From contig JAGGAC010000054.1 of the NCBI GenBank assembly GCA_017889635.1, positions 1-47,501 of the forward strand: a stretch of 47,501 bases of DNA, in the 5' to 3' direction. Below, one piece after another: positions 38,444 to 40,877 of the stretch (its first letter is position 1; each line of letters begins with the position of its first letter). The stretch comes from Bacillota bacterium. Its GTDB lineage: Bacteria > Bacillota > Negativicutes > Sporomusales > CTSoil-080. The notes beneath the pieces are model-generated. The model made no database searches. It was given only the letters and a program-made list of their open reading frames with translations, and had not been told where the DNA came from. Both the position numbers and the translations under genes were made by a program.

Positions 38444-38476
38444 TAAATGCACTAATTGATGGAGGCGTCGTATTTT

Positions 38477-38674
38477 ATGTCTTGGCCTAACGTTAAATAT
38501 GATGTAGCCGGAAAATACGCCATAATCAGCGGCGGAACTTCTGGAATTGGTTTATCAACTGCCAAGCTATTGTTAGAAAACGGTGCCTATGTAATTTGTT
38601 TTCTTGCCTCCTCATGCGCTTCATACGTTACAGGAGCCATATGGTCAGTTGATGGCGGCCTGACGGCGCGTTAA
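38477..38674 (+). pseudogene. Short-chain dehydrogenase with internal deletion
   Basis: A 65-codon frame joins an SDR N-terminus (GKYAIISGGTSGIGLSTAKL with the cofactor Gly motif) in frame to an SDR C-terminus (SYVTGAIWSVDGGLTAR). About 170 residues, including the catalytic Ser-Tyr-Lys, are missing; the join is near 38595. GATGGAGG precedes ATG 38477, so it may still be translated, but it cannot be an active SDR. Confidence 0.82.
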
Positions 38675-38852: not shown

Positions 38853-39476
38853 GTGTTCTTTGAAATTTTTCTTATTGGGATACTGGCAGGAATATCCCCA
38901 GGTCCTGACTTTTTTATTGTTATGAAAAATAGTCTTGAATACGGAAAGAAAATTGGTATTGCATCTGCTATCGGTATAGCAACCGCACTACTTATTCATG
39001 CATCCTATACCATATTCGGACTTGCCTTGGTTTTACAAAAATACATTTATATCTTTAAAGCTATCCAAATCTTGGGGGCTTGTTATTTGGCATACTTAGG
39101 AATACAGGCCATTAAAGCTACTTTTTCAAACAAAAAAATGGATTTTGACTATTCGCCAAATATCCACGACAATAAAACCGTCCTCCAAGGCTTTAATAAT
39201 GGCTTTTTATGCAACATATTAAATCCAAAGGCTTTTTTGTTTTTCTTAAGTATCTTCTCGCAATTTATTACTCCAGCCACTCCGGGTTGGGTAGAATGGA
39301 TATATGGCTTGGAAGTTGTATTAGCCGTCGGAGGGTGGTTTGTTATTCTATCAATAATGATTTCATCCGATTTTTTTCGGCAAATCTATCAAAAATCCCG
39401 TAAGTGGCTTGATAGGTTTTTGGGAGGCCTCCTACTATATTTTGCCTATAAAATCTCTAAATCTGTTTTTAACTAA
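38853..39476 (+). CDS. LysE/RhtB-family amino acid exporter
   Basis: A 207-residue protein with six membrane helices. GILAGISPGPDFFIVMKNSL near the N-terminus is the LysE/RhtB signature; GFNNGFLCNILNPKAFLFFL near residue 115 is the second conserved block. The GTG start has AGGAGG upstream. The substrate cannot be told. AT-rich, no linked regulator. Confidence 0.9.
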   Translation: MFFEIFLIGILAGISPGPDFFIVMKNSLEYGKKIGIASAIGIATALLIHASYTIFGLALVLQKYIYIFKAIQILGACYLAYLGIQAIKATFSNKKMDFDYSPNIHDNKTVLQGFNNGFLCNILNPKAFLFFLSIFSQFITPATPGWVEWIYGLEVVLAVGGWFVILSIMISSDFFRQIYQKSRKWLDRFLGGLLLYFAYKISKSVFN

Positions 39477-39521
39477 TAGAATACGGTAAATAATATCATC
39501 AACGGAAGGAGTTGTTATTTT

Positions 39522-39581
39522 ATGTTTAACAATAATATATCGGATATTGTAACAATGCGGGAGGTGTGTACAAAAAATTAA
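39522..39581 (+). CDS. Possible leader peptide of rsgA, 19 residues
   Basis: MFNNNISDIVTMREVCTKN follows a good GGAAGGAG ribosome site with ten-base spacing and ends ten bases before the 5' arm of a hairpin that covers the rsgA ribosome site. The arrangement resembles translational attenuators; the coding call is inference. Confidence 0.45.
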   Translation: MFNNNISDIVTMREVCTKN

Positions 39582-39587
39582 CTAGTA

Positions 39588-39629
39588 TAAACCTCCCAAA
39601 AGTCACTATCTAACACTTTTGGAGGATTA
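39588..39629 (+). promoter_or_regulatory. Hairpin sequestering the rsgA ribosome-binding site
   Basis: CCTCCcAAAAG (39592-39602) pairs with CTTTTGGAGG (39616-39625) over a 13-base loop, and TAA/TTA pairs extend the stem. GGAGG at 39621-39625 is the only ribosome site for the TTG start at 39634. No T run follows, so it is not a terminator. Confidence 0.6.
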
Positions 39630-39633
39630 AAAA

Positions 39634-40719
39634 TTGCGCAAAATAGACATGAAAAATTGGGGACTCAGCCAAAAATTCGCTGCCGAGTCTGCTTATTATA
39701 CCAACCTTTATATCGGGCGGGTAATTTCCCAATCCAAAGACCTCTACAAGGTCATAACAGCAAACGGTGAATTGACAGCCGAGATCTCCGGAAAATATCG
39801 TTTTGCTGTAAAAACTTTGTCTGATTACCCCGCAGTCGGCGACTTCGTTATGCTTGACCGCAATAATGATACCGGTGGAAATGCAATTATCCACCACGTC
39901 CTGACAAGAAAAAGCGCCTTTATCAGAAAAGCCGCCGGAACATCGAATAATGACCAGATTGTAGCGTCAAACATTGATACAGTATTTATCTGTATGTCGC
40001 TTAATAACGATTTTAACCTTCGCCGAATAGAACGCTACCTTGGAGTCGCCTGGGATAGCCGGGCAATTCCGGTCATCGTGCTTACTAAAGCTGACTTATG
40101 CGACGATCTCCCCCAAAAGATGGCAGAGCTTGCTACTGTCGCTTGCGGTGTTGATGTGCTGGTTACTTCAAGCATGAGTGAGGACGGCTACCTATCTGTC
40201 AAAAGTTACCTTGGCACAGGCAAAACCATTGCCTTCATCGGCTCGTCTGGTGTTGGTAAATCAACCTTGATCAATCGACTTATTGGCGAAACTGCACTTG
40301 AAACCAAAGAGACAAGAAACGATGATAAAGGACGGCATACCACCACCCGACGGGAACTCATTGTTCTTCCAAGCGGCGGCATCGTTATCGACACCCCCGG
40401 AATGCGGGAACTTGGTATTGAAAGCGCCGACCTATCAAAAACCTTTGCCGATATTGATGAGCTTTCAACAAAGTGCAAATTTCATGATTGCACTCATACT
40501 TGTGAGCCAAACTGTGCGGTACAAACGGCTATAAACGCCGGTTTGTTATCTTCAGATAGACTCGAAAATTATTTTAAACTAAAAAAAGAAGCAAAGTATG
40601 AGGGCTTAAGTTCTAAGCAGATTGAAACTGAAAAATTTTCCACAATGTTCGCCGAAGTAGGTGGAATAAAAAACGCCCGCAAGCTTATCAAAGAAAATAA
40701 AAAAAGGCGGGGTTTCTAA
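39634..40719 (+). CDS. rsgA: RsgA-type ribosome-associated GTPase, long form
   Basis: A 361-residue protein. An OB-like domain (residues 30-100) precedes a circularly permuted GTPase: VLTKADL (G4), IAFIGSSGVGKSTLINRL (G1, near residue 197) and VIDTPGMRELG (G3). The Zn-binding domain has KCKFHDCTHTCEPNC. A basic 40-residue tail (IKENKKRRGF) makes it longer than the usual ~300 residue RsgA, as in the accessory paralogues of Firmicutes. It assists maturation of the 30S subunit. The TTG start is inferred from GGAGG at 39621-39625. Confidence 0.93.
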   Translation: MRKIDMKNWGLSQKFAAESAYYTNLYIGRVISQSKDLYKVITANGELTAEISGKYRFAVKTLSDYPAVGDFVMLDRNNDTGGNAIIHHVLTRKSAFIRKAAGTSNNDQIVASNIDTVFICMSLNNDFNLRRIERYLGVAWDSRAIPVIVLTKADLCDDLPQKMAELATVACGVDVLVTSSMSEDGYLSVKSYLGTGKTIAFIGSSGVGKSTLINRLIGETALETKETRNDDKGRHTTTRRELIVLPSGGIVIDTPGMRELGIESADLSKTFADIDELSTKCKFHDCTHTCEPNCAVQTAINAGLLSSDRLENYFKLKKEAKYEGLSSKQIETEKFSTMFAEVGGIKNARKLIKENKKRRGF

Positions 40720-40721
40720 TA

Positions 40722-40877
40722 TATTATCCGCGCTTTGGTTACGTTCTGGCAAGCCGTCTTGGCATAATTGCCCACTTTGATGTTCCTGACGAAGTATTTA
40801 TGGCGTATGAACTCACCCCAAATGCCTTATCCAAAGTAGAAGGTATTTTTGTAAATTCCAAAGAATTTCCTAATTAA
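40722..40877 (+). pseudogene. GNAT acetyltransferase C-terminal remnant
   Basis: An open frame without a start reads YYPRFGYVLASRLGIIAHFD, VPDEVFMAYELTPNAL and KVEGIF to the stop at 40877. PRFGF and VPDEAFMALEL-type motifs mark the end of a GNAT N-acetyltransferase; the CoA-binding core is missing. It begins directly after the rsgA stop. Confidence 0.75.

Follow-up and report, generated by a model that had tools for sequence, protein, structure and literature searches.

A conserved leader open reading frame with competing hairpins, a putative translational switch, upstream of an RsgA paralogue and other genes in bacteria

The rsgA2 locus and its leader

The window analysed here is contig JAGGAC010000054.1 (GCA_017889635.1), positions 1 to 47,501 of the forward strand, from a Bacillota bacterium (Sporomusales; CTSoil-080). 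It harbors rsgA2, which encodes a paralogue of the 30S assembly GTPase RsgA (Table 1). The rsgA2 product belongs to the RsgA GTPase family (Pfam RsgA_GTPase PF03193, 174.7 bits with a cut-off of 30; TIGR00157, 165.3 bits with a cut-off of 100); a function of it at the 30S subunit is putative. A second rsgA, 33% identical to rsgA2, is found elsewhere in the same genome and was taken as the housekeeping (canonical) copy; the leader element described below is absent there, the best covariance-model score being 13.3 bits (E 0.25). Directly behind rsgA2 lies the C-terminal remnant of a GNAT acetyltransferase gene, for which Pfam by itself gives no match; along 43 aa it shares 44% identity with a GNAT under leader control at another locus (L165). 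At 38456-38671, a 72-aa ORF retains both ends of a short-chain dehydrogenase domain with the middle missing, and is apparently an internally deleted gene.

Upstream of rsgA2, we read in the sequence what the initial annotation had described, namely a 19-codon leader ORF with a strong ribosome site of its own, whose stop codon lies ten bases before a stem with the rsgA2 GGAGG as its 3' arm. That annotation missed a competing GGGAGGT inside the leader, as well as the presence of the element outside rsgA. Segment 2 can pair either with segment 1, forming hairpin P1, or with the rsgA2 Shine-Dalgarno (SD) sequence, forming hairpin P2, and the two hairpins therefore compete: P1 can leave the rsgA2 SD free, while P2 hides it. 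The first base of the D-I-V codons of the leader is located 16 nt from segment 1. When the window was folded as a single sequence, the result was unremarkable (z -1.42; 17 of 200 shuffles folded equally well), so that the evidence for the element is comparative.

Table 1. Leader element, rsgA2 and GNAT remnant in the window
Feature	Position	Strand	Description
Leader-ORF SD	39504-39511	+	GGAAGGAG, read in the sequence; purine-rich SD kept in alignment A1
Leader ORF	39522-39581	+	MFNNNISDIVTMREVCTKN; 19 codons; ATG 39522-39524, TAA 39579-39581
D-I-V codons	39543-39551	+	Codons 8-10 (GAT ATT GTA); E-I-V counterpart; proposed arrest site
Segment 1	39559-39565	+	GGGAGGT; P1 5' arm, antisequestor; within leader codons 13-15
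Further P1 pairs	39567-39571 with 39585-39589	+	Overall P1: 39559-39571 with 39585-39597
Segment 2	39591-39597	+	ACCTCCC; arm common to P1 and P2
Hairpin P2	39592-39625	+	CCTCC(C)AAAAGT 39592-39603 with ACTTTTGGAGG 39615-39625; sequesters rsgA2 SD
Segment 3	39621-39625	+	rsgA2 SD GGAGG; P2 3' arm
rsgA2	39634-40719	+	RsgA paralogue (30S assembly GTPase), 361 aa; TTG start 39634
GNAT remnant	40722-40874	+	GNAT acetyltransferase C-terminal remnant, directly 3' of rsgA2

Distribution of the element and the genes behind it

Counting its own genome, the rsgA2 paralogue was present in 20 of the 28 genomes of the order at E 1e-60 and the leader DNA was matched in 7 of the 28; the matches in the other genomes (6 of 27) were 81 to 85% identical. 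After removal of repeats (L002, L009, and L032 to L037), we obtained 47 non-duplicate stretches upstream of rsgA2 relatives. Leader and stem were present in 38 of them, in keeping with the expectation that both would be conserved in relatives carrying the same paralogue, and nine had no recognised leader or were impossible to judge. Left out of alignment A1 were L052 (contig end), L061, L053, L020, L060, L063, L028, L029, and L030. The 38 leader-bearing loci include records labelled Pelosinus, Sporomusa, Lucifera, Anaerovirgula, Alkalibacterium, Domibacillus, and Paenibacillus, as well as MAGs labelled Synergistales or Synergistaceae. By eye, two Propionispira loci show neither leader nor P1 upstream of rsgA2; GATCTTGTA (L053) or GATATTGTG (L061) remains together with AACTTTTGGAGG, which looks as if a deletion had taken out the switch. 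In L052, an rsgA2 with 72% identity lies on a contig labelled Candidatus Micrarchaeota, perhaps through a binning error.

A covariance model of the 38 rsgA2 leaders (R1) was run on 398 genomes of the phylum; with the limit set at E 1.5e-9, it matched 24 times, in 23 genomes. The genes behind these matches were rsgA2 (18), RNHCP (2), and GNAT (2), with no intact rsgA2 in one case (L087) and no gene in another (L102). R1 was trained only on leaders of rsgA2 and thus recovered those of RNHCP and GNAT independently. At E 0.01 the tally rises to 74 of 398 genomes, which overstates the distribution, weak matches being mostly not leaders: upon inspection of 18 weak-match stretches, L102, L107, and L109 were taken as leaders and 15 were not, and L093 and L095 to L097 were judged non-leaders. 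We thus relied on the 24 stronger matches.

Searches with a further model (R2) gave the 99 copies of alignment A4, in which exact repeats were avoided and near-identical rows remain. Behind these copies we found rsgA2 in 70 cases, GNAT type 1 in 16, type 2 in 3 and type 3 in 1, RNHCP in 5, CD3324 in 2, and no gene in 2, the classes being assigned by likeness to one query each and the family names by Pfam and NCBIfam on examples. The initial annotation had tied the device to rsgA, but the same leader also stands before GNAT, RNHCP, and CD3324 genes and before one methyltransferase gene. Among 12 named genomes, the element was matched in nine. Three of them harbor a second copy. In Lucifera butyrica it precedes a GNAT gene (L200, which seems to be the L165 locus again); in Anaerovirgula multivorans it precedes the methyltransferase gene and has the leader MFKHIKNESV; and in Anaerospora hongkongensis a CD3324-like gene comes behind it, with a methyltransferase-like gene next in line.

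In L017 (2583-2992), L171, L175, and L202, a CD3324-family gene lies behind a related leader or match whose P1 sequence is completely different, and in L017 and L202 this gene is followed by a methyltransferase-like gene. Read by eye, P1 and P2 share hardly any bases in the CD3324 copies. Copies of the leader that lack an intact downstream gene were seen in L102 (1453-1577), L174, and L087. No relatives were found in viral contigs, and the phage (28) and plasmid (176) records held only RsgA relatives less than 60% identical. A leader match accompanies one such relative, located on an 808-kb replicon of Peptoclostridium acidaminophilum; no further sign of mobility was seen.

RNHCP was found in 13 of the 398 phylum genomes, five times in open frames of 431 to 521 aa. 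The three long frames examined (L181, L183, and L186) all encode fusions of an RsgA GTPase with a C-terminal RNHCP, and RsgA2 shares 42% identity with one of the fusions along 306 positions. The leader stands before three of the 13 RNHCP genes. Among the loci examined, rsgA2 is immediately followed by a GNAT gene in L048 and L133 and by a GNAT remnant in the window; in L084, a GNAT gene stands before the leader. Fusion, neighbourhood, and common leader thus tie RsgA2, RNHCP, and GNAT together, and we infer that they may form a ribosome-stress or drug-response module. PDB and NCBIfam name no substrate for the GNAT or RNHCP proteins.

Pairing and leader peptide across copies

Compensatory changes in relatives, for which the initial annotation had proposed to look, were found, and the pairing covaries. 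For P1 and distal P2, alignment A3 (64 model-aligned copies; L102 and the second L017 match excluded), which was fitted to the tested structure and so favours it, had 83.2% of cells paired, compared to 71.0% when shuffled. Double-sided changes occurred in 15 of the 18 pairs (shuffle mean, 11.8; 0 of 500 as high), and covariation reached 0.360, compared to 0.172 in shuffled alignments and at most 0.164 with the partners slid. In the MAFFT alignment A1, covariation was 0.248 versus 0.175 shuffled (0 of 500), while the number of double-change pairs was not unusual (139 of 500). The full P2 was weak on A1 (13 of 500), with a version slid by +1 equally high (0.172 versus 0.168). RNAalifold retained only five pairs on the MAFFT alignment, in part because some distant rows are out of register by a base; model-based alignments were used from there on. 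Compensated forms of P1 include GAGAGG:CCTCTC in L088 and L089 and those of the TTTTCCCTCC group (L024 to L027).

We also compared the fit of each helix within a sequence to its fit between sequences, and the within-sequence fit was the better one. In this swap test, whose statistics, like those of the shuffles, are inflated by the relatedness of the sequences, 69 long leaders (L099 and L092 left out) gave z values of 5.6 for P0, 6.3 for P1, and 4.9 for P2, and 22 short leaders gave 4.3, 2.7, and 2.3, respectively. For 39 sequences of the main rsgA2 group, z was 3.8 for P0 and 3.5 for P2, and P1 was not significant (z 0.9; 180 of 1,000).

P0 is a third helix, between the E-I-V codons and the P1 loop. 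In the 24 short leaders it comprises 6 to 11 bp, for instance GAGATTGTA:TACAATCTC and GAGATTGTGGC:GCCATAATCTC, with a mean score of 18.2 compared to 11.7 for shuffled loops and p<=0.05 in 71%. Among the 73 long leaders, 11% reached p<=0.05, including L024 to L027, where P0 is compensated (GTTCGTC:GACGAAC in L025 and L027 versus GTCCGTC:GACGGAC in L026). In the window, P0 would amount at most to TTGTA:TACAA, which is no better than shuffled loops (p 0.44). P0 and P1 interlace and would thus presumably exclude each other.

A leader ORF is present in 97 of the 99 copies, none being found by script in L150 and L174. The 73 long leaders, mostly of 17 to 20 codons and including most rsgA2 copies, run through GGGAGGT. 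The 24 short leaders, of 9 to 12 codons, end two bases before it and precede GNAT type 1 and 2 (19) or RNHCP (5) genes. A core of E/D, I/S/L, and V/A was found in 80 of 97 leaders (EIV, 32; DIV, 16; EIA, 13; ESV, 13; ELV, 4; DLV, 1; DLA, 1). The core triplet starts anywhere from codon 6 to codon 12 of the ORF, while its first base lies 16 nt from GGGAGGT in 68, 17 nt in 26, and at another distance in 3 of the 97 leaders, a count that leans towards constancy because the script picked the most E-I-V-like in-frame triplet within 13 to 20 nt of P1 and the model prefers similar spacing.

On the minus strand of L020, about 230 bases upstream of an rsgA2 relative, a five-codon ORF with a good SD encodes MEIVL. 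By eye, a 14-bp hairpin lies 15 nt from its E codon, and the covariance model gives no match there; this could be a minimal version of the element, unrelated in sequence.

The leader pN/pS was 0.96 for codons 2 to 7, 0.72 for codon 8, 1.13 for codon 9, 0.42 for codon 10, and about 1 beyond. The +2 control frame (12 sequences) was also low over codons 8 to 10 (0.47), indicating that the low values there are not specific to the reading frame. Amino acid selection on the leader peptide is therefore weak, the pN/pS result being mostly negative, and the conservation at the E-I-V codons may be of the RNA, the peptide, or both.

Ribosome position and control of rsgA2

To place a ribosome on the leader, we kept the bases beneath it unpaired (footprint, -14 to +11 from the first P-site base) and folded 97 copies. 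In the window, freeing the rsgA2 SD cost 2.6 kcal/mol in the naked RNA, 2.5 with the P site at I, 6.3 at V, and 8.4 beyond. The corresponding medians were 2.2, 1.2, 4.2, and 7.0 kcal/mol for the 73 long leaders and 4.0, 0.85, 1.7, and 4.1 kcal/mol for the 24 short ones. Moving the ribosome from I to the last codon abolished P1 in 70 of 73 long and 23 of 24 short leaders. Measured against the naked RNA, a ribosome at I lowered the cost of freeing the SD by more than 0.5 kcal/mol in 23 of the 73 long leaders and raised it in 12; for the 24 short leaders, these numbers were 18 and 2. P1 increased by more than 0.2 in 14 of 73 long leaders, with a decrease in 5, and in 12 of 24 short ones. According to these foldings, late positions would close the SD strongly, and opening by a stopped ribosome is predicted most clearly for the short leaders.

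For the window as for the long leaders, P1 is favoured both in naked RNA and with a ribosome on the start codon (median, 0.99). As most long leaders already favour P1 when naked, they would rely on leader translation for their resting state, which may leak; in the model, passage of a ribosome would close a mostly-P1 empty RNA. In the folding of the window, a leader ribosome past codon 10 covers GGGAGGT, upon which P2 forms and the SD closes, and P1 is favoured only by a ribosome at or before codon 9 or by none. With the footprint extended to +15 (38 copies), closing begins at codon 9 in most cases, compared to codon 10 or 11 with the footprint to +11. The initial annotation had proposed that translation of the leader, or stalling on it, could open the stem. 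The folding agrees as regards a stop at or before codon 9, while passage through the leader has the reverse effect and closes it.

From what was computed, that is, the element, its conservation, competing pairings, spacing, and gene associations, we infer a cis-acting leader-peptide switch that controls rsgA2 translation with arrest at E-I-V as the signal, and as a whole we give this reading a probability of roughly 0.55. The position of the leader ribosome would decide between P1 and P2. With the P site at or before the E/D-I codons, P1 would form just ahead of the ribosome and rsgA2 would be translated; a ribosome past V would cover GGGAGGT, P2 would form, and rsgA2 would be shut. Leaders of about 18 codons, the window type, would be closed by translation across GGGAGGT. 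On leaders of 9 to 12 codons, the ribosome would stop before GGGAGGT, and P0 would compete with P1 when no ribosome is present. For both kinds, the ribosome arrested at E-I-V would represent the open state, in vivo as in the model. A ribosome inhibitor or a related translation stress would probably cause the arrest, and RsgA2, RNHCP, GNAT, and perhaps the methyltransferase may then act as a ribosome-stress or resistance module. An answer to antibiotics would be compatible with this scheme.

Alternatively, the leader could sense initiation without any arrest peptide. Less initiation on the leader, brought about by scarce or drug-blocked 30S subunits or by start-codon inhibitors, would then give P1 and open rsgA2, with E-I-V mattering only as RNA or spacing. 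Such a sensor would explain why the naked RNA and the start-codon ribosome favour P1 in the window and long leaders and why pN/pS is near 1 over most of the leader, and for other uORF switches the trigger is a stall on the start codon caused by tetracycline, retapamulin, or further drugs (PMC12121999). It accords poorly with the short leaders, in which the median cost is 4.0 kcal/mol naked or with a start-codon ribosome versus 0.85 to 0.95 at E or I, and with the distance from E-I-V to P1, which is fixed at 16 to 17 nt while the start distance varies and thereby points to a ribosome stopped at E-I-V. We regard an initiation sensor as possible but doubtful. Much further down the scale, and in our view highly improbable, comes autogenous control, in which RsgA2 or another ribosome factor would bind the hairpin and repress, the leader ORF being incidental. 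Segment 2 does contain ACCTCC, which resembles the 16S 3' end (ACCUCC), but its ability to pair with each of two GGAGG segments accounts for this. Solved complexes exist of RsgA bound to the 30S subunit, yet the leader ORF accompanies the element in 97 of 99 copies, and in 27 of 99 the element stands before GNAT, RNHCP, and CD3324 genes, by which an RsgA-specific control loses weight.

Control might also be exerted on the transcript itself, with P2, or the loss of translation, ending or destabilising it. In this locus, however, P2 is followed by ATTAAAAATTG, with no T run, its 3' arm is the SD itself, and a consensus scan of the + strand from leader to gene revealed nothing resembling an intrinsic terminator. 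Precedents exist in HflXr, a close parallel controlled by transcription attenuation (PMC6310831), and in toiL, where Rho-dependent termination is added (PMC12121999). All in all, transcription attenuation or an effect on RNA stability appears unlikely. An rsgA transcript starting inside the stem, which would have spoken against the initial annotation, is not suggested either by a consensus scan, the only means used, which gave no promoter-like + strand site between leader and gene. Overall, the conserved leader switch is real and its anatomy well supported, and the direction and signal given for it above are putative.

The ermC-type attenuator, with its ErmCL leader, is organised in a scheme of segments. 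Its principle is translational attenuation by a leader (PMC10219788), and the element resembles it in having a short leader ORF, alternative hairpins, the SD of the gene in the last arm, and a leader ribosome whose stop is proposed to set the fold. The erm-type layout asserted by the initial annotation thus stands as regards the leader ORF with its own ribosome site, seen in the sequence, and the exclusive hairpins, one of which hides the SD. In contrast, covering segment 1 frees the SD in ermC and closes it in our foldings. Unlike in ermC, moreover, the stopped ribosome has segment 1 in front of it, short copies carry a P0 interlaced with P1, and both the controlled genes and the peptide are different. 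Because of this anatomy, we consider that the element may work like an erm/toiL-type switch and do not class it as an erm attenuator.

At the toiL uORF of Escherichia coli topAI, a stalled ribosome is similarly proposed to free the ribosome site of the next gene; there, the uORF itself pairs with that site and a stall anywhere is expected to open it (PMC12121999), whereas only early or E-I positions open our element in the foldings and later ones close it. In Listeria monocytogenes, hflXr likewise encodes an additional copy of a ribosome-associated GTPase, and it too comes with a short leader ORF and alternative RNA folds, but it relies on transcription attenuation and a 14-residue peptide with RLR, and resistance has been shown (PMC6310831). 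Here, it is the SD that would be controlled, the core is E/D-I/S/L-V/A, and a role in resistance is conjectural.

Rfam (release 15) gave no family at gathering score at the element, either in window positions 39300-39900 or at 11 element loci, and near-matches for the window fell far below the gathering scores. Literature on RsgA, RNHCP, HflXr, CD3324, and anti-sequestors, surveyed by title and with subscription papers partly uncovered, yielded no such leader among the titles listed, in line with the initial annotation, which knew of no description of such a device for rsgA. As far as literature and Rfam show, this suggests that the leader switch, with its own anatomy and a principle of the erm/toiL type, is undescribed.

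Leader switches often guard genes for resistance or translation stress, and from the arrest peptide one can learn to which inhibitor the switch responds. Tentatively, and with less confidence than for the switch as such, the element may be the sensor of an undescribed ribosome-protection module, in which RsgA2 and RNHCP would clear a ribosome-bound inhibitor, most likely from the 30S subunit, GNAT and methyltransferase would modify drug or target, and a new arrest peptide with an E-I/S-V core would recognise the inhibitor class and thereby turn on all of these genes. A widespread leader with a core of its own and a fixed distance to a hairpin provides a handle on several genes without known roles. 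It raises the direct question of which condition arrests ribosomes on E-I-V and whether RsgA2 protects, and it could carry over to the small subunit the HflXr idea that a ribosome GTPase has become a resistance factor.
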